Origin: Haloferula sp.
GTDB taxonomy: Bacteria > Verrucomicrobiota > Verrucomicrobiia > Verrucomicrobiales > Akkermansiaceae
Direction of reading: 5' to 3'
Assembly: GCA_007126655.1 (NCBI GenBank)
Contig: SLAV01000154.1
Span: forward strand, 1-50,995
DNA: 50,995 bases
Shown here piece by piece: positions 15,771-49,153 of this stretch; position 1 is the stretch's first letter, and every line of letters begins with the position of its first letter. Below the pieces are notes generated by a model, which was given only the letters and a program-made list of their open reading frames with translations, was not told where the DNA came from and did not search any database. Position numbers and translations under genes: made by a program.

Positions 15771-15872
15771 GCCTGCAAAGGCAAAGCGGAGCGCCGGATT
15801 CATCCAGCCGGTGCCCGGACACAGCCGGAAAAAAACTGAAACATCCCCGCCGCAACCCGCGTTTCCATCCAC

Positions 15873-16112
15873 ATGACCCAAACACTCTCTTTCATCGGCA
15901 CCGTCGGCGCGCAGGAAATGATGCTTATCTTCCTTGTCGTGCTGCTGCTTTTCGGGGCCAAGAAACTCCCCGAACTCGCTCGCGGCATCGGCAAGAGCAT
16001 GGGTGAGTTCAAAAAGGCCCGCGACGAGTTCGAGCACGAGATCACCCGCGCCGACGCATCCGTTTCCGGAGAGAAGGCCACCGCCACAAGCGGCAACCGG
16101 TCGAACGACTGA
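15873..16112 (+). CDS. tatA: twin-arginine translocase subunit TatA, copy 1
   Basis: A 79-residue TatA/E protein: short N-terminus, membrane helix (EMMLIFLVVLLLFG), the conserved hinge GAKKLPELARGIGKSMGEFKKA amphipathic helix (split across residues 27-48) and a polar tail. TatA oligomers form the pore for folded proteins. No tatC is in the window. It is nearly identical over its first 57 residues to the next gene, so the two are recent tandem duplicates. Confidence 0.93.
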   Translation: MTQTLSFIGTVGAQEMMLIFLVVLLLFGAKKLPELARGIGKSMGEFKKARDEFEHEITRADASVSGEKATATSGNRSND

Positions 16113-16205
16113 TCCCGCGACCGCGCGGCGGGGCTTCCCGATCGCGATCCACGCCTGTGGATATCGCTAGGCAAACCCGGTGGACCGGTTTAAAATAATC
16201 CAATC

Positions 16206-16484
16206 ATGAACGAGACATTCGCATTCATCGGCACCGTTGGCGCACAGGAAATGATGCTCATTTTCCTGGTCATCCTGCTTCTCTTCGGTGCCAAGAAACT
16301 TCCGGAACTCGCGCGCGGCATTGGCAAGAGCATGGGCGAGTTCAAGAAGGCCCGGGAGGAATTCGAACACGAAATCACCAACGCGGAAATCGAAGCCACC
16401 AAGCCGAAACCGAAACCCGCCCAAGGCAAGGAGACCGCCAAGGCCCGGGACTCCAAGGAAGAGGAAAAATCCGGAGACGCCTGA
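16206..16484 (+). CDS. tatA: twin-arginine translocase subunit TatA, copy 2
   Basis: A 92-residue second copy. The membrane helix and amphipathic helix match copy 1 almost residue for residue (LVVLLL versus LVILLL); the tails differ completely, this one being longer and Lys/Pro/Glu-rich (KPKPKPAQGKETAKA). It starts 93 bases after copy 1, following an AT-rich TTTAAAATAATCC stretch that may hold its own promoter. A strong hairpin follows at 16600. Confidence 0.93.
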   Translation: MNETFAFIGTVGAQEMMLIFLVILLLFGAKKLPELARGIGKSMGEFKKAREEFEHEITNAEIEATKPKPKPAQGKETAKARDSKEEEKSGDA

Positions 16485-28178: not shown

Positions 28179-28306
28179 CCCCCACGCGACAGGGAATTTC
28201 GTGTGGCATGTTCTGCAAAACCGGCTTCCGGCGGGAATTTGTGCTTGGTCATGCCATGGGGCGGGCGGTTATCATGGAATGCCAATCCAACATCCCGAAC
28301 AACACC

Positions 28307-29218
28307 ATGAAACGAATCGTCAGGCGCGTGCAATCGCTCAACGAGCGGGCCGCCGAACTCACCGCCGCCGCCGGGCAGCTGCCGGATCGCGTGACCGAAC
28401 TGCGCCAGGCGATGACCGCCACGTCCGGCGAACTCAAGAACCTCAAGAGCGGCATCGAGGTGAACATGACCGATCTCCAGACCAGCCGCGAGGACGAGCT
28501 TGGAGAAGCGCTTGCCGAGGTGGCCGCCCACGCGCCGGTGCTCGCGGAGGCCGGCTTCATCCTCGACGGACTCGATGTCGAGGTCTGCCCTGAGCAACGC
28601 GTCATCGTGCAACTGGTGCGTCACGACGATATCGAAACCCTCGAGATCCAGGCCCTAATCCAGAAATACCAGCAGCAGAAAGCCGTGCGCGCCATCCTCT
28701 CCGCGATTCTCAAGGCCCGTGCGATGGTGGAAACCATCGAGATCGACGGGCTCGACTATCACAAACTGACCGTCGGCATCGGGCGGGTCCCGACGATCCG
28801 CCTCTGCTGGCGCGACACCTCAACCGATGCGTCGGTCTCCGCGGGCGGCGACATGTTTGCGGAAAACACCGCCTCCGGCCCGCAATCCAACCGAAAGAAC
28901 ACGGCTTTCCCGCAGGAGTCCTTTTTCGGCGCCCCCCCCGCGCTCACGCAGTCGGCCGTATCGGCAGACGCGGCTGCGACCGCAACGAACGGCGGGGAAA
29001 TCCAAGCTGGTTCTGCTGCGGAGTCCGCGCCCGAGCCGGCGACCTTCGCCCCTCAACAGAAGACCCCGGTGGAGTCCGCCGGGAGACAGGCCGCAAGTCC
29101 GCCGCCGCTGCCGGCGAAAGGCGGACCGGAACCCGCACCATCGCCGCCGCCATTGCCCGCCGAAGATCCCCCAGACCCGCTGGCGAAGTTCAGGAAAATG
29201 CCGAACCTGAAACGCTGA
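28307..29218 (+). CDS. coiled-coil protein with disordered Pro-rich C-terminus, unknown
   Basis: The ATG at 28307 gives 303 residues; ATG 28274 would add eleven. The first 60 residues are helical and heptad-like (SLNERAAELTAAAGQLPDR). A compact middle (about 80-180) contains VEVCPEQRVIVQLVRHDDIE and a helix-rich KYQQQKAVRAILSAILKAR. From about 185 on the chain is Ala/Pro-rich and ends with PPPLPAE and a basic MPNLKR. No enzyme motif or signal peptide is visible, and I do not recognise the family. It diverges from grpE. Confidence 0.65.
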   Translation: MKRIVRRVQSLNERAAELTAAAGQLPDRVTELRQAMTATSGELKNLKSGIEVNMTDLQTSREDELGEALAEVAAHAPVLAEAGFILDGLDVEVCPEQRVIVQLVRHDDIETLEIQALIQKYQQQKAVRAILSAILKARAMVETIEIDGLDYHKLTVGIGRVPTIRLCWRDTSTDASVSAGGDMFAENTASGPQSNRKNTAFPQESFFGAPPALTQSAVSADAAATATNGGEIQAGSAAESAPEPATFAPQQKTPVESAGRQAASPPPLPAKGGPEPAPSPPPLPAEDPPDPLAKFRKMPNLKR

Positions 29219-29281
29219 TTGCCGCCAACCACTCAGTCCCTGCAAGCGGGACCCGGTCACAATCTGGAATCATGGCTCCGA

Positions 29282-29332
29282 ATCCTTCACCGTACCGCGC
29301 TCTTCCTTGAGTTCGGAGATGGTGACGTCGAT
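29282..29332 (-). pseudogene. relic of the 3' end of a malate dehydrogenase gene
   Basis: Minus-strand translation reads IDVTISELKEERGTVKD, against [17 protein letters not shown] at the C-terminus of the intact enzyme at 37102-38088. About 44 of 51 bases match that gene by hand alignment; it is closer to that copy than to the BMC copy at 48167. Nothing upstream in the gene is preserved. It sits immediately downstream of the SNF2 helicase gene. Confidence 0.75.
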
Positions 29333-29359
29333 CATGAGTTCTGATTTCGTGGGCGGATT

Positions 29360-32005
29360 TCATCCGCCACTGCCACGCGCTTCCCCGGTGGTTTCGATTT
29401 TTTCCGCCTGGGCGAGCGCTTTTTCGGCGGCTTTTTGGTGGGATTCGGCTTCCTCCGGGAGGTCGGCCTCGATGAGCAGGCCGGCGACTTTTTGCTTTTT
29501 GGCGGCGAAGGCGCGGAGTTCGGCGATGCGCTGCTTCTGCTCTTCGGTGAGGGCGGGCTTGGCCGGCGGGGGCGGGACGTCGCCGGCGAGGTGGCGGGTG
29601 GCGCGGGTATTGAGGGTGATGAGGCCGGCTTCGGCGAGTTGCCGGAGGTTGGCCCAGGTCGATTCGTCGAGCACCTGGAGCCTGGGCGGGGCGTCGCCCC
29701 AGCGGGTTTCCCGGAACAGGGCGAAGACGGCGGCGGCGCGGGATGGATCGCGCAGGACGGCGAGGACGACCGGGTTGTTGTCGCCGGGCAGCATGGCTTC
29801 CTGGCAGTGGACGAGCGACTGGCCGAGGGTGGCGGCGGTGCGTCGGGCGAAGGCCGCGGCGGGGTCGGATGCGGTGGGGTCGGATGCGGTGGGGTCGGAT
29901 GCGGCGGTGGCCTGGGCTTCGGGGGCCTTGCCGTCGGGGGTGTCCGCGAGGAATTGTTTGAGGCGGGTGAGGTTGGCGTCGGCCCCGCGCTTGAGCTTGG
30001 TTTGTTCGAGGGATTCGTCGGAGCCGTCGAGCACGCCCTGGGCGAGGCTGGATTTGAGGGCGAGGGTTTCGAGCATGGATTGCTCGATGGTGTCCTCCGC
30101 AACGAGGTTGATGACGGTGACGGGGCGCTTCTGGTTTTTGCGCCAGGCGCGGGCGATGCGCTGTTCGAGCTTGGCGGGGTTCCAAGGAAGGTCGCAGTTG
30201 ATGACGACGCTTGCGTTTTGCAAGTTCAGCCCGACGCCGCCGGAATCGGTTGAGAGGAAGAGGCGGCATCCGGGGTCTTCGCGGAAGGCGATGATCTCGC
30301 CCCGGCGCTTTTTCTGGGGCACGCTGCCGGTGTGCCAGGCGTGGCCGACGTCGTTGGCCTCGGCCCAGCCACGCACCTTGCGGAGCATGCCCTCCCATTC
30401 GGAGAAGATGATGATTTTGACGTCTGGATCCTGGAGCGCTTCGTCGAGGATTTTGGTGAGTTCGTCGAGCTTGGGGCAGTCCTCGCAGTCTTGGCCTTTG
30501 ACGATGGATGGCGAGTCGCAGATCATGCGCATGATGCCGAGGTAGATCATGAGGCGCTCGGACTCCTCTTTTTTGAGCGGGCGCTTGAGCGACTGTTGGA
30601 CGAGGCGGGAGACTCGGAGTTTGTATTCGTCGTATTCCATGCGCATGGCGCGGGTGAGTTTGACGAAGTGGTTGCGGTCGCTGCGGTCGGGGAGTTCGGT
30701 CTCGACGTGGTGCTTGCGGCGGCGGAGCAGCACGGGGCGCACGCGCTCGCGGAGGGCGGCGAGGTTCTTGTAATCCTCGGGGCGGCCCTTTTCGTTGAAT
30801 TGATAGAACTCGCGGTTGAAGCGGAACAGCGGACCCAGCAGCGACGGATCGAGGAAATCGACGATGGAGTAGAGTTCGTCGATGCGGTTCTCGATGGGGG
30901 TGCCGGTGAGGACGAAGGCGTAGCGGCTCTGCAGGCGCTTGACAGCGCGGGCGGTCTTGGTGGCCCAGTTCTTGATGCGCTGGGCCTCGTCGAGCACGAC
31001 GATGTCGGGCCGCAGGTGGGTGTTGATGTCGAGCGTGTCGGTGACGACCTGCTCGTAGTTGACGATGGTGAAGAACGGCGGGTTCGGATCGGCGTAGTGC
31101 TTGATGCGGGCGGTGCGCGGGCCGAAGACGATCTGCTGGGAAAGGGTGGTGAATTTCCCGATCTGCTCCTCCCACTCGGTCTTGAGCGAGGCGGGGGTGA
31201 CGACGAGGACGCGCCGCGCTTTTCCAAAGTGGTGCAGCAGGGCGCAGGCGGCGATGGCCTGGATGGTCTTGCCGAGGCCCATTTCGTCGGCGAGCAGGGC
31301 GCGCTCGCCGAAGGCGAGGTGCAGCATGCCCTCGCGCTGGTAGGGGTAGAGCGGGTGCAGGGTGACGTGCTCGGGATGGCGGCCGGTGACGACGCCGTTC
31401 TCATATTCGCGGCGCAGGCGGAGGCGCTCGGCGGCGCGGCGGCGGGATTCGAGGAAGGGTTCGACGTCCTGCGAGAGGCGGACTTTTTTCGACCGCCGGA
31501 GGCGCGGGAGGATTTCCTCCGGGTCGTGCTCGTCGAGCAGGAACCCGGCGGGATCGAAGTGCTTGCGCAGGGCGGGGCTGATCTGGTTGCGGTTGCGCTC
31601 GATGGCGAGGCGGTCGCCGACGGGGACGAGATCGACGCGCGGGGAGGCGGATTTTTCCGCGGCCCTGAACTCGGCCTTGCGGCGGCGCTTGAGCCAGATG
31701 AGCGTCGCTTCGACGTGCTTGCAGGTGCCGAGGCCGGCGGTGCGGAAGTCGGGACAGGTGCAGGAAAACGCGCGCGCGCCGAGGTCGCGGATCTCGGTCT
31801 GATAGGTCATGCCGCTGGGCGATTTGACGGCGAAGTTGGCGAAGACCGGGTGGATCTCGTCGAGCGGGGTGACGGAGTGTTTCTCGTCGCGGGCGCGCTG
31901 GACGCGGCGGAGGATCTCGTCCTCGTCGGTGGTGCGCCAGTCGCTTGCGGGTGGTAGCGGGATGCCTTTCGACTTTTTCTTTTTCGCGGATTTCCGGGCG
32001 GGCAT
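29360..32005 (-). CDS. SWIM zinc-finger SNF2-family helicase
   Basis: An 881-residue SF2 ATPase of the SNF2/RapA group. A SWIM zinc finger is at residues 82-97 (Cys82, Cys84, Cys95, His97). Motif I is LLADEMGLGKTIQ (238-249), motif II VLDEAQRIKN (338-347); helicase C motifs follow (DSGGVGLNLQNAS, and RAWRKNQKRPV typical of SNF2 proteins). The last 200 residues are Ala-rich and include a Ser-Asp-Pro repeat. Such proteins remodel RNA polymerase or nucleoprotein, and in bacteria occur in defence islands. The ATG at 32005 leaves 85 bases to the divergent primase-helicase gene. Confidence 0.92.
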   Translation of the reverse strand: MPARKSAKKKKSKGIPLPPASDWRTTDEDEILRRVQRARDEKHSVTPLDEIHPVFANFAVKSPSGMTYQTEIRDLGARAFSCTCPDFRTAGLGTCKHVEATLIWLKRRRKAEFRAAEKSASPRVDLVPVGDRLAIERNRNQISPALRKHFDPAGFLLDEHDPEEILPRLRRSKKVRLSQDVEPFLESRRRAAERLRLRREYENGVVTGRHPEHVTLHPLYPYQREGMLHLAFGERALLADEMGLGKTIQAIAACALLHHFGKARRVLVVTPASLKTEWEEQIGKFTTLSQQIVFGPRTARIKHYADPNPPFFTIVNYEQVVTDTLDINTHLRPDIVVLDEAQRIKNWATKTARAVKRLQSRYAFVLTGTPIENRIDELYSIVDFLDPSLLGPLFRFNREFYQFNEKGRPEDYKNLAALRERVRPVLLRRRKHHVETELPDRSDRNHFVKLTRAMRMEYDEYKLRVSRLVQQSLKRPLKKEESERLMIYLGIMRMICDSPSIVKGQDCEDCPKLDELTKILDEALQDPDVKIIIFSEWEGMLRKVRGWAEANDVGHAWHTGSVPQKKRRGEIIAFREDPGCRLFLSTDSGGVGLNLQNASVVINCDLPWNPAKLEQRIARAWRKNQKRPVTVINLVAEDTIEQSMLETLALKSSLAQGVLDGSDESLEQTKLKRGADANLTRLKQFLADTPDGKAPEAQATAASDPTASDPTASDPAAAFARRTAATLGQSLVHCQEAMLPGDNNPVVLAVLRDPSRAAAVFALFRETRWGDAPPRLQVLDESTWANLRQLAEAGLITLNTRATRHLAGDVPPPPAKPALTEEQKQRIAELRAFAAKKQKVAGLLIEADLPEEAESHQKAAEKALAQAEKIETTGEARGSGG
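29861..29905. repeat. three 15-base tandem repeats inside the SNF2 gene
   Basis: The unit GGGGTCGGATGCGGT occurs three times in a row (last base differs in copy 3). It keeps the frame and encodes the run ASDPTASDPTASDP. In-frame slippage would change the linker length without breaking the gene. Confidence 0.85.
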
Positions 32006-32090
32006 GACGCGTGGAGCATCGGGAACCGGCCAAGGCTTGGCAATTCGGAAGGCGGGTGGTTTTGACACGACCTGTAGGCTGGTGCAGTCC

Positions 32091-34889
32091 GTGATCCACC
32101 ATCGCAGTCCGTCCCACGAGAAGATCGCCCTTTTCCGCTCGCTGTTTCGCGGGCGGGAGGACGTGTATCCGCGCCGCTTCGAGAACCGGCGCACCGGGCG
32201 CGCGGGCTACGCTCCGGCGTGCGGCAACGAATGGGTGCGCGGGATTTGTGAGAAGCCGCGGATCAAGTGCGCGGACTGCCGGCACAAGGCGTTCCTGCCC
32301 GTCACCGACGAGGTGATCCGCTGGCATCTATCGGGCAGGGACAACCACGGCAGGGACTTCGTCGCGGGCGTTTATCCGATGCTTGCGGACGAGACGTGCT
32401 TTTTCCTCGCCATCGATTTCGACAAGGAGAACTGGCGCGACGACGTGCTCGCGGTGATGGCGGCCTGCCGCCGGTTGGAGATCCCCGCCGCGCTGGAGCG
32501 GTCGCGCTCGGGAAACGGCGGGCACGTCTGGTTTTTCTTCTCCCGGGCGGTCCCGGCATGCCAGGCCCGCAAGCTCGGCTCGGCGGTTCTGACGGAAACG
32601 ATGGAGCGGCGCCCGGAGATCGGCCTCGCCTCGTATGACCGGTTGTTCCCGAATCAGGACACGATGCCGAAGGGTGGCTTCGGCAACCTGATCGCGCTGC
32701 CGATGCAGAAGGCGGCGCGGGCCGGCGGCAACAGCCTGTTCGTCGATGACGAATTCCAACCCCTGCCGGACCAATGGGCGTTTCTATCAGGAGTCGGCCG
32801 TCTTTCGCCCGAACGCGTCGGGGAACTTGTGCGGGATATGGAGCGTCGCGGGCATGTGACGGGTGTGCGCTTCGCATTGGTGGAGGAGGATGCGGACGAG
32901 GAACCATGGAACTCCCCGCCCTCGCGCCGTCGGCGCGAGGCACCGCTCAAGGGCACACTGCCTGGGGAACTGCGGCTCGTGCTGGGGGACCAGATTTACC
33001 TGAGCAAGGAGGAAATGCCGCCCCAGCTCCGCAACCGCCTCATCCGGCTGGCGGCGTTCCAGAATCCCGAGTTCTACCGCGCCCAGGCGATGAGGCTCTC
33101 GACCTACAACAAGCCCCGCGTCATCGGCAGCGCCGAGGATCTGCCCGATCACATCGGCCTGCCGCGCGGATGCCTGGATGATTTACTTGCTTTTTTGAAG
33201 CAATCGAAAATCAAGCCCGTCATCCGCGACGAGCGCGTGCGCGGGGAGAAGCTGGATGTCCGCTTCGCCGGCACCCTGAGGCCCGAACAGGAAGCGGCGT
33301 CAGCCGCGATGCTGGCCCATGACACCGGCGTGCTTTCCGCCACCACCGCATTCGGCAAAACCGTGCTCGCCGCGCACCTGATCGCCGCGCGTGGCGTGAA
33401 CACGCTCGTCCTCGTGCACCGCCAGCAGTTGATGGACCAATGGGTCGGGCGGCTTGCCACCTTTCTCGATGTGCCGGAAAAATCGATCGGGCGGCTCGGC
33501 GGCGGGCGCAGGAAGCTCACCGGCGGCCTCGACGTCGCATTGATCCAGAGCCTCGTCCGCAAGGGGGTGGTGGACGACCGGGTGGCGGATTACGGCCATG
33601 TGATCATCGACGAATGCCACCACATGTCGGCCCGGAGTTTCGAACTCGTCGCCCGGCGGGCCAAGGCGCGCTATCTCTGCGGCCTTTCCGCCACGGTCAC
33701 GCGCAAGGACGGCCACCATCCGGTCATCTTCATGCAATGCGGCCCGGTGCGGCACCGGGTCGATGCGAAACAACAGGCGGAGGCCAGGCCATTCAATCAT
33801 CATGTGATCGTGCGTCCCACCGGGTTCCGCCCGGCGTCCGGACCGGATCCCGACCGGCGGATCGAATTCCAGAACCTCTGCGCCGAACTGGTCGGTTGCA
33901 CCCGCCGCAACGAAATGATCCGCGACGAAGTGCTCGCCGCGCTTCGCGAGGGCCGTGCGCCGCTGGTCCTCACCGAACGCACCGAACACGTCGAAGTCCT
34001 CGCGGATCTGCTCCGCCCGCATGTGGCGAATCTTGTGGTCCTGCAGGGCGGCATGGGCCGCAAGGCGCTGCGGGCCGCAATGGACGCGCTGGCCGATGGC
34101 CCGGAAAGCGGAAGCCGGGTGGTGATCGCCACGGGCAGGTTCGTCGGCGAGGGTTTTGACGATCCGCGTCTCGACACGCTGTTCCTCACCATGCCGGTCT
34201 CGTGGCGCGGCATCGTCGCTCAATACGCAGGCCGCCTCCACCGTCTGCACGATGGCAAGCGCGAGGTGCGCGTCCACGACTATGCCGACCTCGACGTGCC
34301 GATGCTCTCGCGCATGTTCGACAAGCGCTGCGCCGGTTACGAGGCCGTGGGCTACACGATCCTGCTGCCGGCGAGCGCCCTGCCCGGCTGGCCCGCCGAA
34401 GTCCCGCTGCCCATCGATTCCGCATGGAAAAACGACTACTCCGCGAGCATCCGCCGCCTCATCCGCGATGGCGTTGATGTGCCGCTGGCGGGCCTTTTCA
34501 TCACCGCCGCCGCGCCCGCGTCCGACGAGCAACGCGCCCGCAGCGCCGCCGAGGCGTTTCTTTTCAAACGCCTCGAATCACTCGCGGAGACATCAGGCCT
34601 TTTCCGACTCAACGCCAAGCTGCCCATCCCCTTCGACAACTGGAGCGAGATGGAGGTCGATCTTTATTGCGCCGAACTCCAGCTCGCCATCGAGATCGAC
34701 GGGCCGCAGCACCTCAACGACCCCGCCGCCTACCGCCGCGACCGCCGCAAGGACGCGCTGCTCCAGGAAAACGGCTGCCACGTCCTGCGCTTCCTCGCCG
34801 ACGACCTCTCCAAACACCTCGACGCCACGCTCGACGCGATCCTGAGAGCCGTCGCGCATCGGCGCGGGCGGAACGGGATCATCCTTTAA
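32091..34889 (+). CDS. TOTE-type archaeo-eukaryotic primase / SF2 helicase / DUF559-like nuclease
   Basis: A 932-residue, three-part protein. Residues 15-70 hold a Cys-rich segment (Cys44, Cys53, Cys60, Cys63). Residues 70-240 are an archaeo-eukaryotic primase domain of the TOTE conflict-system type: AIDFDKENW (107-115), SGNGGHVWFFF (140-150), FGNLIALPMQ (197-206). An SF2 helicase follows, with TTAFGKT (418-424), DECHH (507-511) and SAT (533-535). The C-terminus resembles a DUF559/Vsr-like PD-(D/E)XK nuclease (EVDLYCAELQLAIEIDGPQH). Such proteins are linked to defence against mobile DNA. No ATG fits; GTG 32091 (or 32082) is the likely start. It overlaps the PIN gene by 11 bases, tail to tail. 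Confidence 0.88.
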   Translation: MIHHRSPSHEKIALFRSLFRGREDVYPRRFENRRTGRAGYAPACGNEWVRGICEKPRIKCADCRHKAFLPVTDEVIRWHLSGRDNHGRDFVAGVYPMLADETCFFLAIDFDKENWRDDVLAVMAACRRLEIPAALERSRSGNGGHVWFFFSRAVPACQARKLGSAVLTETMERRPEIGLASYDRLFPNQDTMPKGGFGNLIALPMQKAARAGGNSLFVDDEFQPLPDQWAFLSGVGRLSPERVGELVRDMERRGHVTGVRFALVEEDADEEPWNSPPSRRRREAPLKGTLPGELRLVLGDQIYLSKEEMPPQLRNRLIRLAAFQNPEFYRAQAMRLSTYNKPRVIGSAEDLPDHIGLPRGCLDDLLAFLKQSKIKPVIRDERVRGEKLDVRFAGTLRPEQEAASAAMLAHDTGVLSATTAFGKTVLAAHLIAARGVNTLVLVHRQQLMDQWVGRLATFLDVPEKSIGRLGGGRRKLTGGLDVALIQSLVRKGVVDDRVADYGHVIIDECHHMSARSFELVARRAKARYLCGLSATVTRKDGHHPVIFMQCGPVRHRVDAKQQAEARPFNHHVIVRPTGFRPASGPDPDRRIEFQNLCAELVGCTRRNEMIRDEVLAALREGRAPLVLTERTEHVEVLADLLRPHVANLVVLQGGMGRKALRAAMDALADGPESGSRVVIATGRFVGEGFDDPRLDTLFLTMPVSWRGIVAQYAGRLHRLHDGKREVRVHDYADLDVPMLSRMFDKRCAGYEAVGYTILLPASALPGWPAEVPLPIDSAWKNDYSASIRRLIRDGVDVPLAGLFITAAAPASDEQRARSAAEAFLFKRLESLAETSGLFRLNAKLPIPFDNWSEMEVDLYCAELQLAIEIDGPQHLNDPAAYRRDRRKDALLQENGCHVLRFLADDLSKHLDATLDAILRAVAHRRGRNGIIL

Positions 34890-35313
34890 GATGCAGAAAC
34901 CGCAGTCCGTCGAACGTGGCGAAATCCGAATCGAACGACACCACCCGGGCGCTGGCGGCGTGGGCAACCGCCGCGATCCAGGCGTCGGTCCAGCGGGATG
35001 CGGTGAAACCGGGCTGTTGTGTCCAGTTGGCGAAGTGTTGCTCGGCAAGCAGGGATTCCTCAATAAAACGGACATCGGGCAAGGCGGCGTAGGCCGAATA
35101 GGCAGCCCATGCCTCCGCGACGGTGAACGGATTCCCGGACATCACTTTCGGATGCGTCAGCAATCGCAGCAGGCCCAACATCGTCACACGACAAAATGCG
35201 AAGCACGGAAGCGATTCTTGTTCCCAGTAGTGGCTGGCACGGATGTGGTGCTGGTGATCCGGATCGGTGAGCGCCAGCCAGACGTTCAGGTCGGGAACAT
35301 CAAGGTCTTTCAT
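34879..35313 (-). CDS. PIN-domain toxin (VapC-like)
   Basis: A 144-residue PIN-domain RNase. Acidic residues expected in the active site are visible in DVPDLNVWLALTD, the central SLLAEQHF region and near the end in TDAWIAAVAHAASARVVSFDSDFA. VapC-type toxins cleave RNA, often initiator tRNA. The ATG at 35313 overlaps the end of the upstream antitoxin-like gene by 14 bases. Tail-to-tail overlap with the primase-helicase gene places it in an accessory island. Confidence 0.85.
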   Translation of the reverse strand: MKDLDVPDLNVWLALTDPDHQHHIRASHYWEQESLPCFAFCRVTMLGLLRLLTHPKVMSGNPFTVAEAWAAYSAYAALPDVRFIEESLLAEQHFANWTQQPGFTASRWTDAWIAAVAHAASARVVSFDSDFATFDGLRFLHLKG

Positions 35314-35557
35314 GGATTTCCCCGGTCGTGAGTATGGAATCGATTTCCTGGTTGCCCAGTGCGGCATTCACATGGCCCGTGGCCTTGCGGATTCTCGGCA
35401 AGGGACTCCGGGAGCGAGGATGCGTCCCGCTTGACGGACTTTGCAAGCCGGCCTCAATCAGTTCCGCCACCAAGTCCTTCAGCTTCTGCCCACGCAGCGC
35501 GGACTCCGCTTTAAGGCGGCGGAAAATCGGATCGGGTAAATCCAGTGTGGTTCTCAT
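35300..35557 (-). CDS. ribbon-helix-helix type antitoxin
   Basis: An 85-residue protein beginning MRTTLDLPDPIFRRLKAESA, the pattern of an RHH DNA-binding antitoxin (strand, then helix). A central helix KLKDLVAELIEAGLQ follows, then a disordered toxin-binding tail. It is directly upstream of the PIN gene and overlaps it, the usual antitoxin-first order. A TTGCAA box and TAAAAG 16 bases later precede it on the minus strand and could be the autoregulated promoter. Confidence 0.78.
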   Translation of the reverse strand: MRTTLDLPDPIFRRLKAESALRGQKLKDLVAELIEAGLQSPSSGTHPRSRSPLPRIRKATGHVNAALGNQEIDSILTTGEIHERP

Positions 35558-35812
35558 AAAAATGCTTTTATGCGGTAAATCCGGGATTGCAAGACGGATT
35601 TTGGGTTTCACGAAGAGTTTTTCGAACACGGTTCACCTACAGTTATTTGTTGAAACCGGCTCAACGGCGCATACAGCTTGAGGAGGGTGGACTCACTTGC
35701 GGAGGGCATGGCTCAGGGATGTGCCTCCCGGAGTTCGTCCCACAGGGACCGGGAGTCGCTTATCCGCAGTCGGTTTTTGACATCCGGGCGGTGAGGGTCA
35801 CACTTGCCGCCC

Positions 35813-37039
35813 GTGAAGAGTGAGGCGCAAACGGAATTTGACATCAATCTTCCACCGGCACCGGCGGCGGCGAAGATGGATCTGACCATCAAGAGCGGGG
35901 ATTCGCAGGTGCTGACTCCGGCGCAGGAGGAGTTCAACAAGCGGATCAAGGCGCTGGAAAAGGCGCGCGCCTCATACGACCGCAAGCGGGCACGGCTGGA
36001 CAAGTATCTGGCGGTCTGCCGCAACGAGCTGATGCCATGGGTCGAGGCGCGCAACCGGCAGGAATGCGAAATGATCTTTCTCGTTGCGGACGCGCACCGG
36101 TCGATGAGGCTCACGGCGCGGCGGCGCACGGCGCTGGAAGGCCTGCTGCTGTGTAAAATCTCGGACCTGCGCGAGGATTCCGTCGGCCTCGGTGAGGAGG
36201 AAATGGCGAAACTGGACGCGCTCTGCCACGAGCTTGACCCGCCCGACGAATCCGATGGCCCGGAGCCGGACGACGAGGAATCCGAAGCCCGCGACCGCGA
36301 GGAATTCGAGAAATTGCGCGCCATGCTCGAAGACGCCGCCCGCCATTCCGGGGTGGACCTCGACCTCAGCGGGCTGAACCCGGACATGGACCCGGAGGAA
36401 TTCGAGCAAATCGTGATGGAGCGCATGCAGGCGGCTGTCAGGGAAGCGGATTCGGCGGCCGGAAACGCGCAACCCGGCCGCAAAACCCGCCGCAAACGCA
36501 AGCCAAGCAAAGCCGCGCTGGAGCGCGAACGCCTGAAACAGGAGGCCGAGGAGGCGAAGAAGCGGGACTTCAAATCACTCTACAAACAACTCGCCAAGGT
36601 GCTCCATCCCGACCTTGAGGCCGACGCCGGCCTGAAAGCGCAAAAGGAGGCCTGGATGAAACGGCTGACCACCGCCCGCAACAGCGGCGACCTGCGCGAG
36701 ATGCTCGCCATCGAGGTGGAATGGCTTGGCCGGGAGGCGGGCAATCTCACGCAGGCGGCGGACGACAAGCTCCGCGTCTATTCCATGGTGCTCAAGGAGC
36801 AGCTCGCGGAACTCAGGCAGCGCACCAGGATGCTCCCGCACGAGCCGGAATACATGCCGCTGCGCCGGTTCATCACGCCGGATGACGACCGGCTCAACGC
36901 CAACATAATCAAGCCGCGGTTGTTCGCGCGAATCGACGCGTTGAAGGAGATGACGGACATCCTCCGCGCCGGCGGCGCGGAGGCGCGGAAGCTGATCCAC
37001 GACAGCGCGGATCAGCACGCGCGGATTTTCGGGGTCTGA
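35813..37039 (+). CDS. J-domain-like coiled-coil protein
   Basis: A charged, helical protein of 408 residues. The middle segment DFKSLYKQLAKVLHPDLEADA carries the HPD tripeptide of J domains in the right helical context, but without a complete J domain around it. The N-terminal half is coiled coil (RIKALEKARASYDRKRARLD) with an acidic stretch (PDDEESEARDREEFEKL). A DnaK co-chaperone role is possible. I chose GTG 35813; a TTG three codons upstream is in frame. Unlike dnaJ there are no zinc or Gly/Phe regions. Confidence 0.6.
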   Translation: MKSEAQTEFDINLPPAPAAAKMDLTIKSGDSQVLTPAQEEFNKRIKALEKARASYDRKRARLDKYLAVCRNELMPWVEARNRQECEMIFLVADAHRSMRLTARRRTALEGLLLCKISDLREDSVGLGEEEMAKLDALCHELDPPDESDGPEPDDEESEARDREEFEKLRAMLEDAARHSGVDLDLSGLNPDMDPEEFEQIVMERMQAAVREADSAAGNAQPGRKTRRKRKPSKAALERERLKQEAEEAKKRDFKSLYKQLAKVLHPDLEADAGLKAQKEAWMKRLTTARNSGDLREMLAIEVEWLGREAGNLTQAADDKLRVYSMVLKEQLAELRQRTRMLPHEPEYMPLRRFITPDDDRLNANIIKPRLFARIDALKEMTDILRAGGAEARKLIHDSADQHARIFGV

Positions 37040-37101
37040 GTTGTCGAGCAAGGACGCTCCGCGGTTTGCTCATCCGCTTGCTTCATTCGCAATTCCGCCC
37101 G

Positions 37102-38088
37102 TCATGACAGCAGATCCTTCACCGCCTCGCGCTCTTCCTTGAGTTCGGCGATGGTGGCGTCGATTTTCTCCTGGCTGAAGGCGTCGATGGGCAGGCCCTG
37201 GACGACCTCCCAGGTACCGTCCGCTTTGGTGCGGATTGGCATGGAGGCGATGAGGCCGGGTTCGATGCCGTAGGAACCATCCGAACAGACGGCGACGGAA
37301 TGCCAGTCGCCGTCCGGAGTCGGGCTGATCAGGGCCTTCATGGTATCCAGTGCGGCGTTGGCGGCGCTGGCGGCGGAAGAGGCACCGCGGGCCTTGATGA
37401 TGGCCGCACCCCGCTGCTGCACGGTGGTGATGAACTCGCCCCTGAGCCACTCCTCGTCGCGGATGACTTCCGTGACCGGCTTGCCTTCGATTTTCGCGTT
37501 GGTGAAATCCGGATACTGCGTGGCGGAGTGGTTGCCCCAGATGCAGAGGTTGGTCACGTCGGAGGCATGGACGCCGGCTTTCGAGGCGAGCTGTGATTTG
37601 GCGCGGTTCTCGTCGAGGCGGGTCATCGCGAAGAAGCGGTCCTCGGGCACACCCGCCGCGTTGCGCATTGCGATCAAAGCGTTGGTGTTGCACGGATTGC
37701 CGACGACGAGCACGCGGACATCCTTGGCGGCGTTGCGTGCGATCGCCTTGCCCTGGCTGGTGAAGATCTTGCCGTTGATGCCGAGCAGGTCGCCGCGCTC
37801 CATGCCCGCCTTGCGCGGAACAGAGCCGACGAGCAACGCCCAGCTGGCCCCCGTAAACCCTTCGTCGAGGTCCGTCGTCGTGATGATGCTGTTGAGCAGC
37901 GGAAAGGCGCTGTCATCAAGCTCCATGACGACGCCGAGCAGCGCGGGCAGCGCGGGTTCGATCTCGATCAACCGGAGTCTGACCGGCTGGTCTTTGCCGA
38001 AAATTTCACCGGTGGCGATGCGGAAAAGGAGGGCGTAGCCGATTTGGCCGGCAGCGCCGGTAACGGAAACAGTGATGGGTGGCTTCAT
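37102..38088 (-). CDS. mdh: malate dehydrogenase, stand-alone copy
   Basis: A 328-residue NAD-dependent dehydrogenase of the cytosolic-type malate dehydrogenase group. The nucleotide loop is [13 protein letters not shown], the substrate arginine loop [15 protein letters not shown], with NPCNTNA, a second Arg in [12 protein letters not shown] and the catalytic His in [13 protein letters not shown]. It interconverts malate and oxaloacetate in the TCA cycle. A near-identical paralogue closes the BMC operon at 48167. A good promoter candidate precedes it; the ATG at 38088 matches the paralogue's start. Confidence 0.95.
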
Positions 38089-41424: not shown

Positions 41425-42105
41425 ATGGCAGCTACGCTTCCACCCAACACTCCCAGAGCCGTCGTCGAGCGCCTCGTGCGCGAGCAGATCTACGCCAGCC
41501 TCGGACTCCCACTGCCGGCCTCGGCGAGCGCGCCCAACGCCTTGCTCGTCAACATTTCGGCCCGCCACTGCCACCTCACCCAGGAAGCTGTCGAAGCCCT
41601 TTTCGGCTCTGGCCACCAACTTACCCCGATGAAAGGCCTCTACCAGGAAGGCCAATTCGCCGCCAAGGAAGCCGTCACCCTGATCGGTCCGCGCAGCCGG
41701 GTCATCTCCAACCTCCGCATCCTCGGCCCCTGCCGGTCGCTCAACCAGGTTGAGCTTGCCTATACCGACGCCATTTCCCTGGGTTTCGACATTCCCGTCA
41801 AAATGTCCGGCGACATTGATGGTACCCCCGGCTGCATGCTCATGGGGCCCAACGGTTACTTCGAACTGCCCCAGGGCGTGATCCGCGCCCAGCCCCACGT
41901 CCACATGCACCCGGACGACGCCGCCTTCTACGGCGTCAAGCATCTTGACGTCATGAAGCTGAAAATCCACGGCCCCCTCGCCATGACATTCGACAACCTC
42001 GTCGTCCGCGTCGATCCCTCTTTCAAACTCGAAGTCCACATCGACACCGACGAAGGCAACGCCTGCGGCCTCAAACCCGATACCTTCTGCGAACTCGTCA
42101 GATAA
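41425..42105 (+). CDS. pduL: PduL-type phosphotransacylase of the BMC
   Basis: PduL converts acyl-CoA and phosphate to acyl-phosphate and frees CoA inside the shell. The 226-residue protein has the zinc-binding histidines in SARHCHLT (His48, His50) and in QPHVHMHPDD (158-162), and the internal duplicated beta-barrel motifs GPRSRVISNLRILGP and RVDPSFKLEVHIDTDE. Residues 10-27 (RAVVERLVREQIYASLGL) form an amphipathic helix of the encapsulation-peptide kind. In this pathway the expected substrate is lactyl-CoA. First gene of the operon. Confidence 0.95.
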   Translation: MAATLPPNTPRAVVERLVREQIYASLGLPLPASASAPNALLVNISARHCHLTQEAVEALFGSGHQLTPMKGLYQEGQFAAKEAVTLIGPRSRVISNLRILGPCRSLNQVELAYTDAISLGFDIPVKMSGDIDGTPGCMLMGPNGYFELPQGVIRAQPHVHMHPDDAAFYGVKHLDVMKLKIHGPLAMTFDNLVVRVDPSFKLEVHIDTDEGNACGLKPDTFCELVR

Positions 42106-42165
42106 AAACAAAATCACCACCTCACCAAACGACCCCCGTCCATAACCCCAAAATACCAAACAGAC

Positions 42166-42435
42166 ATGAGTGCACTCGGCATGATAGAAACCAAAGGCTA
42201 CGTCGGCAGCGTCGAAGCCACAGATGCGATGGCGAAAGCCGCGAACGTCCAAATCATCGACCAGGTCCAGATCGGCGGCGGCTTCATCACCGTCATCGTC
42301 AAGGGCGACGTCGGCAGCGTCAAGGCCGCCATTGATTCCGGAGCCGCCGCCGCCGGCCGCGTTGGGGAACTCATCTCCTCCCACGTCATCGCCCGCCCCC
42401 ACCCCGAACTTCTGGGCCAATTCGGCATCGCGTGA
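42166..42435 (+). CDS. BMC-H hexameric shell protein 1
   Basis: An 89-residue single BMC domain (Pfam BMC type). It starts ALGMIETKGYVGSVEATDAM, has the edge motif KAANVQI and the pore loop QIGGGFITVIVKGDVGSVKAA, so the pore is lined by Gly-Gly-Gly rather than the common Gly-Ser-Gly. It ends with the conserved SHVIARPHPEL. Hexamers tile the shell facets and let small substrates through. The leader is AC-rich with no ribosome-binding consensus. Confidence 0.96.
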   Translation: MSALGMIETKGYVGSVEATDAMAKAANVQIIDQVQIGGGFITVIVKGDVGSVKAAIDSGAAAAGRVGELISSHVIARPHPELLGQFGIA

Positions 42436-42484
42436 ACTTTCCGGCGCTGAAAACTGAAAACCAAACTCTAGCAAACAGAAAACC

Positions 42485-42763
42485 ATGTCCAAACAAGCCA
42501 TCGGCATCCTCGAAACCAAAGGCCTCATCTCGCTTCTCGAAGCCTCCGACGCCGCCCTCAAAGCCGCCGACATCCACATGACAGGCTGGGAAAAAATCGG
42601 ATCCGGCCTCGTCACCGGATTCTTCTCCGGCGATGTCGCCGCCGTCAAGGCCGGCCTCGACGCCGCCGCCTCCGCCGCTTCCAACTTCGGCGAAGTCGCC
42701 TCCGTCCAGGTCATCCCCCGCCCCCACGACGACCTCGCCAAATTCGGCCCGTGGCTCGGCTGA
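42485..42763 (+). CDS. BMC-H hexameric shell protein 2
   Basis: A 92-residue BMC domain with MSKQAIGILETKGLISLLEA at its N-terminus and a canonical pore loop KIGSGLVTGFFSGDVAAVKA. The C-terminus VIPRPHDDLAKFGPWLG is typical. It probably forms mixed facets with the other two BMC-H proteins. A GC hairpin (42764-42778) and a repeat-type leader separate it from ackA. Confidence 0.96.
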   Translation: MSKQAIGILETKGLISLLEASDAALKAADIHMTGWEKIGSGLVTGFFSGDVAAVKAGLDAAASAASNFGEVASVQVIPRPHDDLAKFGPWLG

Positions 42764-42778
42764 GCCGCCTCCGGCGGC
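42764..42778 (+). terminator. GC hairpin between BMC-H2 and ackA
   Basis: GCCGCC/GGCGGC (6 bp, loop TCC) begins immediately after the BMC-H2 stop and is followed by GTTTGAAATTTC. There is no proper T-run. It may reduce read-through or protect the shell-protein mRNA 3' end, giving more shell than enzyme. Confidence 0.35.
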
Positions 42779-42780
42779 GT

Positions 42781-42810
42781 TTGAAATTTCAAATCTCAAA
42801 TTTCAAATCC
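42781..42810 (+). repeat. CAAATCTCAAATTTC-type leader repeat
   Basis: This AT-rich stretch of TTTCAAAT/CTCAAAT units lies directly before the ackA start. Related stretches sit in front of the second BMC-P gene (46487-46513), the third BMC-P gene (46768-46787) and, far away, ddl (20147-20173). TTTGAAATTTCAAA at its left end is palindromic. Confidence 0.7.
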
Positions 42811-42811
42811 A

Positions 42812-44074
42812 ATGCTTCTGCTCATCGCCAACCTCGGCTCCACCTCATTCAAATACCGCCTCTTCCGCATGACAGGAGAGGCGGCCGAGGTGCTTGCCCG
42901 GGGTGGCCATGAGCGAGTGACCGACCACGCCGTCGTCATCGACGAGGCCCTCGCCTCCCTTCAGCGCGACGGGATCATCCAATCCCCCGACGACATCCAG
43001 GCCGTCGGCTTCAAAACCGTCCTTGGCAAGGACCTGAGCGGCTGTGTCATCGCCGACCAAGCTGTCATTGATGCCCTTGAAGGTTTCGCCGAAGTCGCCC
43101 CCGCCCACAATCCGCCCTACGCCAACGGCATCCGCCAGTTCGCAAAAGCCCTGCCAAAAGCCAAGCTCGTCGCCCTCTTCGAGACCGCCTTCTACCAGTG
43201 GACCAGCCCCGCGTCCGCGCACTATGGCATCCCCAAGGCATGGCGCGACATCGGCATCCGCCGTTACGGCTTCCACGGAGCCAGCCACAAATTCATCGCC
43301 GAACGCTCCGCCGAACTTCTCGGACGCACCGACGTCGCCGAAGCCACGCGCCGCCTCTATCTTGACGGCCCGCAACCCATCGATGGCCCTCCCCTCCGCG
43401 TCATCTCCTGCCACCTCGGCGGCTCCAGCTCCGTCACCGGCATCCGCAACGGCGTCGCCATCGGCACCAGCATGGGCTTCTCCCCGCAGAGCGGCCTCCC
43501 GCAAAACAACCGCGTCGGCGACCTCGACTCCGGGGCCATTCCCTATGCCATCAAAAAACTCGGCATCTCCCTTGAAGAAGCCGGCCGCCAACTCACCAAA
43601 GAGTCCGGCCTGCTCGGTCTCTCCGGTGTCTCCAACGACATCCGCGACATCACCGCCGCAGCCAACAAAGGAAACGCCGACGCCCAACTCGCCATCGACG
43701 CCCTCGTTCACTCCATCCGCCACTGGATCGGTGCCTTCATGATCGAACTCGGCGGCATCGACGCCCTCGTCTTCACCGCCGGCATCGGCGAAAACAACCC
43801 CGCCATCCGCGCCGCCGTCTGCACCGCCCTCGAACCCTTCGGCCTCCACCTCGACTCCGAAAAAAACGCCGCCACCCGCGCCACCGAAGCCGACCTCAGC
43901 CAGGAAAAATCCCCCGCAAAAATCCTCCTCATCCCCGCCAACGAGGAACTCGTCCTCGCCCGCGAAGTCTCCCGCAAAATCACCGTAGCAGGCGCCTCCG
44001 GCTCCTGTCTTCAAAATGTAGCAGGAGTCTCTGACTCCTGTTCTCCACTCGTAACAGGCGCCTCCGGCTCCTGA
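42812..44074 (+). CDS. ackA: acetate/propionate-type kinase with repeat-derived tail
   Basis: Acetokinase family: it turns the acyl-phosphate made by PduL into the acid and ATP, here probably lactyl-phosphate to lactate. Motifs: LIANLGSTSFKYRLF, GFHGASHKFIAER, CHLGGSSSVTGIRNG, TSMGFSP, NRVGDLDSG and VFTAGIGENNPAIR. The family fold ends around NEELVLAREVSRK; the final 30 residues are encoded by three intergenic-type repeats (43985-44073) and are probably not functional. Total 420 residues. Confidence 0.95.
   Translation: MLLLIANLGSTSFKYRLFRMTGEAAEVLARGGHERVTDHAVVIDEALASLQRDGIIQSPDDIQAVGFKTVLGKDLSGCVIADQAVIDALEGFAEVAPAHNPPYANGIRQFAKALPKAKLVALFETAFYQWTSPASAHYGIPKAWRDIGIRRYGFHGASHKFIAERSAELLGRTDVAEATRRLYLDGPQPIDGPPLRVISCHLGGSSSVTGIRNGVAIGTSMGFSPQSGLPQNNRVGDLDSGAIPYAIKKLGISLEEAGRQLTKESGLLGLSGVSNDIRDITAAANKGNADAQLAIDALVHSIRHWIGAFMIELGGIDALVFTAGIGENNPAIRAAVCTALEPFGLHLDSEKNAATRATEADLSQEKSPAKILLIPANEELVLAREVSRKITVAGASGSCLQNVAGVSDSCSPLVTGASGS
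43985..44073. repeat. three interspersed 23-base palindromic repeats
   Basis: Copies at 43985-44007, 44018-44040 and 44051-44073 share GTARCAGG...CTCCTG; each can fold (AGGCGCCTCCGGCTCCTG-type or AGGAGTCTCTGACTCCT). A related sequence follows tatA copy 2 at 16488. Here they are read through by ackA and encode VAGASGSC, VAGVSDSC and VTGASGS. Confidence 0.8.
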
Positions 44075-44118
44075 TCTTCACACAGCACCAAGCACCAAGA
44101 CCAAACCAAAACACCATC

Positions 44119-44424
44119 ATGGCCAAACCAGCAGTAGGACTCATTGAAATCCGCGGACTCGCCGGACTCGTCGTCGGCGTGGACGCCATGCTCAAATCCG
44201 CCAACGTCGAGCTTGCCGGCCCGATGAAGCAAATCGGCAACGCCCTGTGCAACGCCGTCGTCACCGGCGATGTCGCGGCCGTCAAGGCCGCCATCGATTC
44301 CGGGGCATCCGCAGCCGCCGATGCCGGAGCCGAGGTCATCAGCGCCCACGTCATCGCCCGCCCCGACGAATCCATCGAAGCCGTCATCCCCAAAGCCCCC
44401 GCCGCCCGCTCCGCGAAAAAATAA
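44119..44424 (+). CDS. BMC-H hexameric shell protein 3, atypical pore
   Basis: A 101-residue BMC domain: AVGLIEIRGLAGLVVGVDAM, SANVEL, and VVTGDVAAVKAAIDSGASAA confirm the fold. The pore loop reads QIGNALCNAVVTG, so the usual Gly-Ser-Gly is Gly-Asn-Ala and a Cys follows two residues later. The C-terminus is extended and basic (APAARSAKK). The gene sits apart from the other two, after ackA. Different permeability or a metal/redox role are possible but unproven. Confidence 0.94.
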   Translation: MAKPAVGLIEIRGLAGLVVGVDAMLKSANVELAGPMKQIGNALCNAVVTGDVAAVKAAIDSGASAAADAGAEVISAHVIARPDESIEAVIPKAPAARSAKK

Positions 44425-44532
44425 GGCAGGGGAAACAGCCCATTGGTGAGAGCGGATGCCGGAGAACAAGCACTCCGACCGGCGCCTCCAGGCACAAAGG
44501 ACAAAGCACCAAGCACCAAGCACAAAGCACCC

Positions 44533-44841
44533 ATGTTCCTTGCCCAAGTCATCGGCCAGGTGGTCTCCACCAAAAAGGACGAGCAGATGGTCGGAAAGAA
44601 GCTGCTCCTGATCCGCCCCAAGCTCATCGACGACAAGGATCCGTCCAAATTCAAGGACGGCGCCAACACCATCGTCGCAATCGACACCGTCGGGGCCGGT
44701 GAGGGTGAGTTGGTCATGTTCTGCCAGGGCAGCTCCGCCCGCGCCGCCCGGGGACTCAAGCAGATCCCCGTCGATGCCGCCATCACCGCCATCATCGACC
44801 GCGTCGAAGTGCAGGGCAAAACCCTCTACAGCGGCGGCTGA
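44533..44841 (+). CDS. BMC-P pentameric vertex protein 1 (EutN/CcmL)
   Basis: A 102-residue EutN/CcmL-fold protein: MFLAQVIGQVVSTKKDEQMVGKK start, a lysine-rich LIDDKDPSKFKDG insertion, and the canonical IDTVGAGEGELVMFCQGSSAR. Pentamers cap shell vertices. The ATG at 44533 follows a CACCAAG-type microrepeat; a GTG at 44443 would add a repeat-encoded leader and is rejected. A long inverted repeat follows the stop. Confidence 0.95.
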   Translation: MFLAQVIGQVVSTKKDEQMVGKKLLLIRPKLIDDKDPSKFKDGANTIVAIDTVGAGEGELVMFCQGSSARAARGLKQIPVDAAITAIIDRVEVQGKTLYSGG

Positions 44842-44855
44842 AGAGCATTCGGCGA

Positions 44856-44975
44856 TTTTTTTTAACCACTGAAACACTGAAAACCACTGAGTTCACTGAA
44901 TTTTTAATGAATCAATAATCCAAATCTTTCTTCTCAGTTCCCTCAGTGGTTCTCAGTGCTTCAGTGGTTAAAAAA
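44856..44975. repeat. long imperfect inverted repeat between BMC-P1 and aldehyde dehydrogenase
   Basis: The left arm (44856-44900, AACCACTGAAACACTGAAAA) pairs with the right arm (about 44931-44975, CTCAGTGCTTCAGTGGTT) through roughly 28-35 bp with few mismatches; the loop is AT-rich (TTTTTAATGAATCAATAATC). Each arm is made of ACCACTGA/ACACTGA units. It fills most of the 166-base gap in the operon. Confidence 0.8.
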
Positions 44976-45007
44976 GCCTACTTCCCCAACCGACTCCCAA
45001 ACCAGGA

Positions 45008-46477
45008 ATGAACACCCTCGACCCCGCCACCATCCGCTCCGTCGTCGAATCCGTCGTCGCCAAGCTCTCCGAATCCCAGGCTCCGGCAGCCCACCCGGCC
45101 AAAAAAGAATCCTGCGGTTGCCACAGCACATCGACCTTTGCCGGCAAAAACGGTGTCTTCACCTGTGCCGACCAAGCCGCCCAAGCGGCCCACGACGCCC
45201 ACCTCCAACTCATCAAACTCGGCGTCGCCGGCCGCGCCAAAGTGATCGAGATCGTCAAACACCTCGCCGTCTCCAACGCCACCGAGTGGGGCACCTTCGA
45301 GATGAACGAGACCAAAATCGGCCGCCTCGACCACAAGATTGAAAAACTCCTCATCACCAAAAACGTCCCCGGCACCGAGTGGCTGCAACCCTACGCCCTC
45401 AGCGGCGACGGCGGCATCACCCTCGAGGAATACGCCCCCTTCGGAGCCATCGGCGCCATCCTGCCCGTCACCCACTCCGTGCCCACCCTCACCGGCAACG
45501 TCATCAACATGGTCGCCGCCGGCAATTCGATCGTCTTCAACCCGCATCCCGGCGGTGCCAGGAGCGCCGCGATGGCCGTGCGCGCCTACAACCAGGCCAT
45601 CCACCGCGAACTCGGAATCGACAACCTCATCACCACCATCGAGGAACCCACCCTCGATTCCTTCGACGCCATCTGCAAAAACCCCCACATCCCGCTCCTC
45701 GCCATCACCGGCGGCCCCGCCGTCGTCAAGGCCGCCATGAAGTCCGGCAAACGCGCCATCTGCGCCGGCCCCGGCAATCCCGTCGTCGTCGTCGATGAAT
45801 CCGCCGACCTCGCAAAAGCCGCCGAAAGCGTCATCGCCGGCGGTGCCTTCGACAACAATCTCCTCTGCATCGGCGAAAAAGTCGTCTTTGTCGTCGCCTC
45901 CGTCTTCAACCGCTTCTGCGAGGAACTCTCCAAAGCCGGGGCCGCCCGCCTCAACGCCGCCCAACTCGAAAAACTCACCGCCGCCGCATTCACCATCAAA
46001 CCCGGCGAGGGCGGCGGATGCGCGCAAGCCGTCCTCAACCGCGAACTCATCGGGGCCGACTCCGAAAAACTCGCCGCCCGTGCCGGAGCCACCATCCCGG
46101 GCGGCACCCAAATGCTCTTCGCCGAAACCGACGCCGACCATCCCTTCGTCCAGAAAGAGCAGATGATGCCCATGATGCCCGTCGTCTCCTGCCCCGACTT
46201 CGAGACCGCCGTCCGCGAAGCCAAACGCGCCGAACACGGCTACCGCCACTCCGCCATCATCCACACCCTCGACGTCAACCACATGACCCGGATGGCAAAG
46301 GAAATGGACACCACCATCTTCGTCAAGAACGGCGCGTCCGTCGCCGGCCTCGGCCTCGGCGGCGAAGGCTACCTCTCCTACTCCATCGCCACCACCACCG
46401 GCGAAGGCATCACCACCCCCAAAACCTTCACCCGCGTCCGCCGCTGCGTCCTCGTCGAAAACCTCCGCATCATCTGA
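45008..46477 (+). CDS. CoA-acylating aldehyde dehydrogenase of the BMC
   Basis: A 489-residue EutE/PduP-type enzyme that oxidises an aldehyde to acyl-CoA with NAD; lactaldehyde to lactyl-CoA is expected here. Residues 4-20 (LDPATIRSVVESVVAKL) form an amphipathic encapsulation helix. A Cys-rich segment KKESCGCHSTSTF separates it from the catalytic domain (GVFTCADQAAQAAHDAH). The nucleophile is Cys287 in NNLLCIGEK; VFNPHPGG and GPGNPVVVVDE are family motifs. No separate lactaldehyde enzyme is needed in this operon. Confidence 0.95.
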   Translation: MNTLDPATIRSVVESVVAKLSESQAPAAHPAKKESCGCHSTSTFAGKNGVFTCADQAAQAAHDAHLQLIKLGVAGRAKVIEIVKHLAVSNATEWGTFEMNETKIGRLDHKIEKLLITKNVPGTEWLQPYALSGDGGITLEEYAPFGAIGAILPVTHSVPTLTGNVINMVAAGNSIVFNPHPGGARSAAMAVRAYNQAIHRELGIDNLITTIEEPTLDSFDAICKNPHIPLLAITGGPAVVKAAMKSGKRAICAGPGNPVVVVDESADLAKAAESVIAGGAFDNNLLCIGEKVVFVVASVFNRFCEELSKAGAARLNAAQLEKLTAAAFTIKPGEGGGCAQAVLNRELIGADSEKLAARAGATIPGGTQMLFAETDADHPFVQKEQMMPMMPVVSCPDFETAVREAKRAEHGYRHSAIIHTLDVNHMTRMAKEMDTTIFVKNGASVAGLGLGGEGYLSYSIATTTGEGITTPKTFTRVRRCVLVENLRII

Positions 46478-46513
46478 AAAAACCTCAAATATGAAATTTC
46501 AAATCTCAAATCC

Positions 46514-46768
46514 ATGATCCCCGCCCTCGTCGTCGGCCATGCCACCAGCACCCACTGCCATCCATCCCTCAAGGGTCGCAGGATGCTGCTCTGCCAGCCG
46601 ACCGATCCGGAGGGCAACCTCACCGGCGCGCCCATGGTCGCCATCGACCTGTTCGGCGCCGGCCTCCACTCCAAAGTCTTCGTCTCCACCGACGGCATCG
46701 GCGCCCGCCACCTCGTCCACGACGCCACCTCCCCCATCCGCAACTTCATCCAGGGCGTCATTGATTGA
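46514..46768 (+). CDS. BMC-P pentameric vertex protein 2
   Basis: An 84-residue EutN/CcmL protein: ALVVGHATSTHCHPSLKGRR start, then MVAIDLFGAGLHSKVFVSTD, where the usual GAGxGE is GAGLHS. It ends with NFIQGVID. It has a CAAATC-type leader. Three BMC-P genes per locus are normal for the PVC class. Confidence 0.93.
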   Translation: MIPALVVGHATSTHCHPSLKGRRMLLCQPTDPEGNLTGAPMVAIDLFGAGLHSKVFVSTDGIGARHLVHDATSPIRNFIQGVID

Positions 46769-46789
46769 TTTCAAATTTCAAATCCAACA

Positions 46790-47095
46790 ATGCGCCTCTG
46801 CCAGGTCATCGGTCGTGTCACCCTCAACCTCCAGGATCCCTCCTACAAAGGCGGCCGCTGGTTGCTGGCCAGCCCGCTCGATCCCGCGCAACTCAACGAC
46901 GCCTGCCAGGCCATGCAGCCCGTCACCAAACAATTCACCCTCGTCACCTACGACAACCTCGGGGCCGGTGAAGGCGATATTGTCGGCGTCGTCGAAGGAG
47001 CCGAAGCCACCGCCCCGTTCGATCACGACATCCCCATCGACGCCATCACCGTCGCCATCTTCGACACCATCTCATACCAACCACCCATCTCATGA
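46790..47095 (+). CDS. BMC-P pentameric vertex protein 3
   Basis: A 101-residue EutN/CcmL protein: MRLCQVIGRVTLNLQDPSYK start and TYDNLGAGEGDIVGVVEGAEA, followed by DIPIDAITVAIFDTI. The stop overlaps the aldolase start (ATGA), so the two are translationally coupled. Confidence 0.93.
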   Translation: MRLCQVIGRVTLNLQDPSYKGGRWLLASPLDPAQLNDACQAMQPVTKQFTLVTYDNLGAGEGDIVGVVEGAEATAPFDHDIPIDAITVAIFDTISYQPPIS

Positions 47096-48162: not shown

Positions 48163-48166
48163 GCAT

Positions 48167-49153
48167 ATGAAAGCACCCATCACCGTCTCCATCACCGGCG
48201 CCGCTGGCCAGATCGGCTACGCGCTTTTGTTCCGCATCGCCACCGGTGAGATCTTCGGCAAGGACCAGCCCGTCAACCTCCGCCTCATCGAGATCGAGCC
48301 CGGCATGGCCGCGCTCAAGGGCGTCATGATGGAACTCGACGACTGCGCCTTCCCGCTCCTCAACGAAGTTGTGGGGACGTCCTGCCTCAACGAAGGATTC
48401 AAAGGGGCAAACTGGGCGCTGCTCGTCGGCTCCGTCCCGCGCAAGGCCGGGATGGAACGCGGCGACCTGCTCGGCATCAACGGCAAGATATTCATCAGCC
48501 AGGGCCAGGCCATCTCCCGCAACGCCGCGCGGGACGTCCGCGTGCTCGTCGTCGGCAACCCGTGCAACACCAATGCGCTCATCGCCATGAGGCACGCCGT
48601 GAGCATCCCGGACGACCGCTTCTTCGCGATGACCCGCCTCGACGAAAACCGCGCCAAATCCCAGCTTGCCCGAAAAGCCGCCGTCCACCCGTCCAAAGTC
48701 ACCAACCTCTGCATCTGGGGCAACCACTCCGCCACCCAATACCCCGACTTCACCAACGCCAAAATCAACAACCGCCCGTGTACCGACGTGATCTCCCATG
48801 TCGCCTGGCTCAAAGGTGAATTCATCACCACCGTTCAACAACGCGGAGCCGCCATCATCAAGGCCCGCGGAGCCTCCTCCGCCGCCAGCGCCGCCAACGC
48901 CGCGCTCGACACCGTCAAATCCCTCATCACCCCCACGCCCAAAGGCGACTGGCACTCCGTCGCCGTCTGTTCCGACGGTTCCTACGGCATCGAACCCGGC
49001 CTCATCGCCTCCATGCCCATCCGCACCAACGAAGAGGGCACCTGGGAAGTCGTCCAAGGCCTCCCCATCGACTCCTTCAGCCAGGAAAAAATCAACGCCA
49101 CCATCGCCGAACTCAAAGAAGAACGCGACGCCGTGAAGCACCTCCTGCCGTAA
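48167..49153 (+). CDS. malate/lactate dehydrogenase, BMC-operon copy
   Basis: A 328-residue paralogue of the enzyme at 37102-38088, with the same motifs ([38 protein letters not shown]) and identical length. By eye about four in five residues match. Differences cluster at residues 46-80 and 195-215. It has no N- or C-terminal encapsulation extension. It starts four bases after the aldolase stop. Recycling NADH formed by the aldehyde dehydrogenase, or acting on lactate, are the plausible roles; the conserved substrate arginines argue for malate/oxaloacetate. Confidence 0.92.

Follow-up and report, generated by a model that had tools for sequence, protein, structure and literature searches.

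A 51-bp remnant of a malate dehydrogenase gene end in a Haloferula genome, probably left by a small duplication and a deletion

The element e14 integrates at the 3' end of icd, supplies the gene with an end and leaves the displaced tail. Like elements at tRNA genes, it has a direct repeat of the gene 3' end on either side, and the same arrangement is found at 29282-29332 and 37114-37164 of the DNA analysed here, a stretch of 50,995 nucleotides from Haloferula sp. (contig SLAV01000154.1), hereafter the window. In this case, the repeated end is that of a malate dehydrogenase gene (mdh1), and the segment between the repeats holds SNF2-family helicase and TOTE genes. An earlier note had proposed that an island of these genes was inserted beside mdh, pushing it to 37102. 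Our analysis points to a real and ordinary relic that is only partly what was first described, namely a dead piece left behind by a small duplication long ago and a subsequent deletion. The relic does not demonstrate the insertion of a mobile island next to mdh, and the insertion account was not supported.

The 51-bp match of the minus strand to the mdh 3' end, on which that proposal was built, was confirmed. The relic at 29282-29332 (minus strand) aligns without gaps and on the same strand to positions 37114-37164 within mdh1 (37102-38088, minus strand), with 46 of 51 bases identical and an E-value of 3.6e-13 in a search of the whole assembly or 2.5e-12 in a self-comparison of the window. It thus matches part of a functional gene elsewhere in the genome. 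The match to a second malate dehydrogenase gene, mdh2 (48167-49153, plus strand), is weaker (39 of 48). Read in frame, the relic gives IDVTISELKEERGTVKD, with an in-frame ATG before it and SEP and a stop after it, while the mdh1 end compared with it in frame comprises 20 residues and then a stop. Both edges of the homology are sharp, as judged by extension against shuffled sequence (downstream p = 0.2, upstream no extension). The relic lies in a gap of 141 bp between the 3' ends of two convergent genes: g28274 (28274-29218, plus strand), a lineage-restricted gene with one homolog in 73 genomes, and the SNF2-family helicase gene (29360-32005, minus strand; PF00176 8.5e-45, PF00271 7.2e-20).

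A closer look at the five differences between relic and mdh1 (9.8% divergence) shows them spread 2/2/1 over codon positions 1/2/3, and four of the five alter the amino acid. Towards mdh2 the differences are distributed 4/2/5 and towards a partial third mdh copy on contig C245 3/2/6, whereas mdh1 and mdh2 differ from each other 2/0/5 over the same region. Thus, the relic is closer kin to mdh1 than to the two other mdh copies of the genome. The even spread is as drift predicts for a non-functional gene scrap, and the comparison of the patterns therefore suggests descent from mdh1 or from a sequence closely resembling it, followed by drift of this truncated piece without conserved coding constraint; with 17 codons, the codon-position pattern is indicative rather than proof. 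The mdh tail of another genome of the genus, G014, is equally close to the relic (five differences). Judging from these sequence comparisons, the relic is probably a non-functional leftover of the mdh1 3' end or of a sequence much like it.

Extra mdh copies are common, and this genome has three. Both mdh1 and mdh2 are intact genes with the two lactate/malate dehydrogenase domains, while the third copy is partial and sits at a contig edge (L035, positions 1-265, contig C245) with 95% DNA identity to mdh2. The gene mdh1 groups with microcompartment-type mdh genes on a branch of 0.25, compared with a median end branch of 0.047, which suggests accelerated evolution after duplication. For its part, mdh2 is the last gene of a microcompartment-like operon (41476-49153) that also contains repeated proteins of roughly 100 amino acids and an aldolase-family gene; G001, G013, G016 and G032 have an operon with this gene order as well. 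Elsewhere in the window, two adjacent small related genes at 15867-16387 (79 and 92 amino acids, 83% DNA identity) represent a local tandem duplication.

The segment between the two mdh ends begins with the SNF2 gene and continues with a TOTE gene (32082-34889, plus strand; PF22548 1.9e-98) encoding an AEP primase, a helicase and a DUF559-type nuclease, a PIN-domain gene (34879-35313, minus strand) and g35876 (35876-37039, plus strand), which encodes a protein of 387 amino acids of unknown function. As the first two combine a TOTE-type AEP primase domain (PF22548) with an SNF2 domain and its C-terminal helicase domain, they belong to the TOTE/SNF2 pair type; from sequence-family matches, the pair is predicted to act as a conflict (defence) system. 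A limited search of the literature returned nothing on TOTE systems.

The TOTE gene has left a scrap of its own. The earlier note had mentioned a further relic at 8849; a relic is indeed present there, and it is a 59-bp piece of the TOTE gene rather than of mdh (8844-8902, minus strand), with 54 of 59 bases identical to 32289-32347 in inverted orientation. This scrap has five differences from the TOTE gene of its own genome and at least ten from that of every relative, and it was therefore copied within this genome. Its divergence of 8.5% is near that of the mdh relic. A further stretch of 178 bp, alone on a small contig of this genome (L129, contig C83, 3255-3432), has 81% identity to the 3' part of TOTE that encodes the nuclease domain; it may be one more remnant of TOTE or else a DUF559 gene in its own right. 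A 545-kb sample of the genome that includes the window holds a few further intergenic fragments of called genes, and since most of them belong to repeat families or contig ends, we do not claim that the scraps cluster.

We consider it probable that the 51 bp are what is left of an additional copy of the mdh1 3' end, which arose by duplication and was then almost completely deleted; we infer both the origin of the copy within this genome and its removal by deletion. A stretch with the mdh1 end would have been duplicated within this genome, nearly the whole copy would have been deleted later, and the remainder, lying in the short space that separates the two convergent genes, would have drifted to a divergence of about 10%. 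More speculatively, a single event may have given rise to both the mdh relic and the similarly diverged TOTE scrap. Reversing a hypothetical inversion of 8844-29281 on paper makes the TOTE and mdh scraps neighbours in the parental TOTE-mdh order and orientation, as would be expected if they were what is left at either end of a second, collapsed TOTE-to-mdh block. The relic also adjoins position 29333, and a tandem duplication of 29333-37164 would have its junction there. This scheme of inversion and tandem duplication for both scraps is consistent with the data but unproven. An inverted segment at 8.8-29.3 kb was not clearly visible in the GC skew, and no relative was seen to carry a longer second copy at the relic site, which would be the intermediate state. 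As a possible link to the inversion we considered the deaminase gene (8958-9416) that neighbours the TOTE scrap and, in G018, lies 5.7 kb from mdh; it was rejected, since a genus-wide search placed it near mdh in that genome only, which fits chance. With regard to the donor, 51 bp is too short to set mdh1 apart from other candidates such as the G014 tail.

Gene order in relatives bears directly on the proposed island. Among 73 genomes of the same genus, which formed our comparison set, SNF2, TOTE, g35876, grpE-dnaJ-rsmE and mdh mostly occupy separate loci, with the homologs of g35876 lying away from TOTE; in G045 and G058, decayed or divergent TOTE copies are found near SNF2. In each of the four genomes that consist of a single contig (G004, G039, G063 and G070), the distance between grpE and mdh exceeds 1 Mb, and the sole homolog of g28274 is on a different contig from the mdh of its genome. 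Hardly any gene order around mdh, grpE, TOTE and SNF2 is common to the relatives, and none keeps the order at the relic site. In a scan of public genomes, SNF2 was widespread in Verrucomicrobiota and had TOTE nearby at 11 of 80 loci (L219, L225, L232, L240, L241, L243, L247, L253, L275, L293 and L295), mostly in Verrucomicrobiota and in all relative orientations, a co-occurrence that suggests a functional pair. None of the flanks examined at the 80 loci, including the 11 with TOTE, contained mdh or an mdh tail, and no second tail was present at about 38 other mdh loci, each of which has one. SNF2-TOTE pairs thus occur elsewhere without an adjoining mdh tail, an outcome that the earlier note had itself listed as refuting its proposal. 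What remains of the earlier note's reading of the relics is that some rearrangement took place; an island inserted beside mdh was not borne out.

The same observations weigh on a more specific scheme, in which 29333-37113 would be a mobile segment that used the mdh 3' end as its attachment site, supplied a replacement end and displaced the original tail to its far border. Its geometry fits, with sharp-edged direct repeats of the 3' end of a gene at the two borders, and the joint presence of SNF2 and TOTE at public loci may mean that the pair travels together. Since the repeat geometry alone would fit, we retain this scheme, at a low probability. However, the stretch between the repeats (29.3-37.1 kb) yielded no recombinase domain and contains only the SNF2, TOTE, PIN and 387-aa genes, and neither movement of the segment as a unit nor reuse of the site was seen in the relatives, at the SNF2 loci or at the other mdh loci. 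The mdh1 tail is not discordant with the body of its own gene, and nothing in it points to an origin from an incoming element; a foreign replacement of the tail was rejected on this ground. Moreover, integration would leave the TOTE scrap at 8844 unexplained. That SNF2, TOTE, PIN and g35876 entered together as an integrating unit at the mdh 3' end and have since lost their recombinase is, with the evidence speaking against it, very improbable.

Somewhat less improbable, although still unlikely, is that an independent, complete mdh gene, or an operon ending in mdh, once stood at this site and was deleted except for the relic. Several genomes of the genus have two mdh genes, and G011 shows such a loss for the microcompartment operon (see below). 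Against this, the relic is closest to mdh1 and not to mdh2 or the C245 copy; the lost gene would therefore be a recent mdh1 duplicate, and the explanation merges with the duplication and deletion that we prefer. Least credible of all is that the similarity arose by chance or that the site encodes a short functional peptide. Chance is excluded by an E-value of about 1e-12. The reading frame MIDVTISELKEERGTVKDSEP starts with an ATG of its own immediately ahead of the match and stays open to a TGA, but most of its differences from mdh1 change amino acids, and no promoter-like site was found in 28900-29700.

Taken together, duplication followed by deletion probably accounts for a relic that by itself changes nothing about function. 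It illustrates that small scars of this kind are readable in the rapidly reshuffling genomes of Verrucomicrobiota, and it serves as a warning that a repeated gene end need not be the border of a mobile island. Unlike e14 and the elements at tRNA genes, the segment has no integrase that we could find, does not recur at mdh and consists of genes that are mostly unlinked in relatives. Precedents exist within the genus. At G011:C1:5491-5820, a decayed mdh tail interrupted by a stop lies between families F9 and F13. As these families border the microcompartment operon in G001 and G013, the tail is the mdh end that stayed when G011 lost the operon. In G059:C33, two TOTE ends of 98 and 71 bp are fused, and TOTE or SNF2 fragments are kept in G047, G045, G083, G075 and G065; deletion scars of the size of the relic are therefore common in the genus. 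The G011 remnant differs in being about 330 bp long and in having flanks that identify the lost operon, whereas the lost copy at 29282-29332 is deduced. Like the relic, however, the G011:C1 mdh tail and the G059:C33 TOTE scar are short, abruptly ending and drifting intergenic pieces of the same genes in the same genus.
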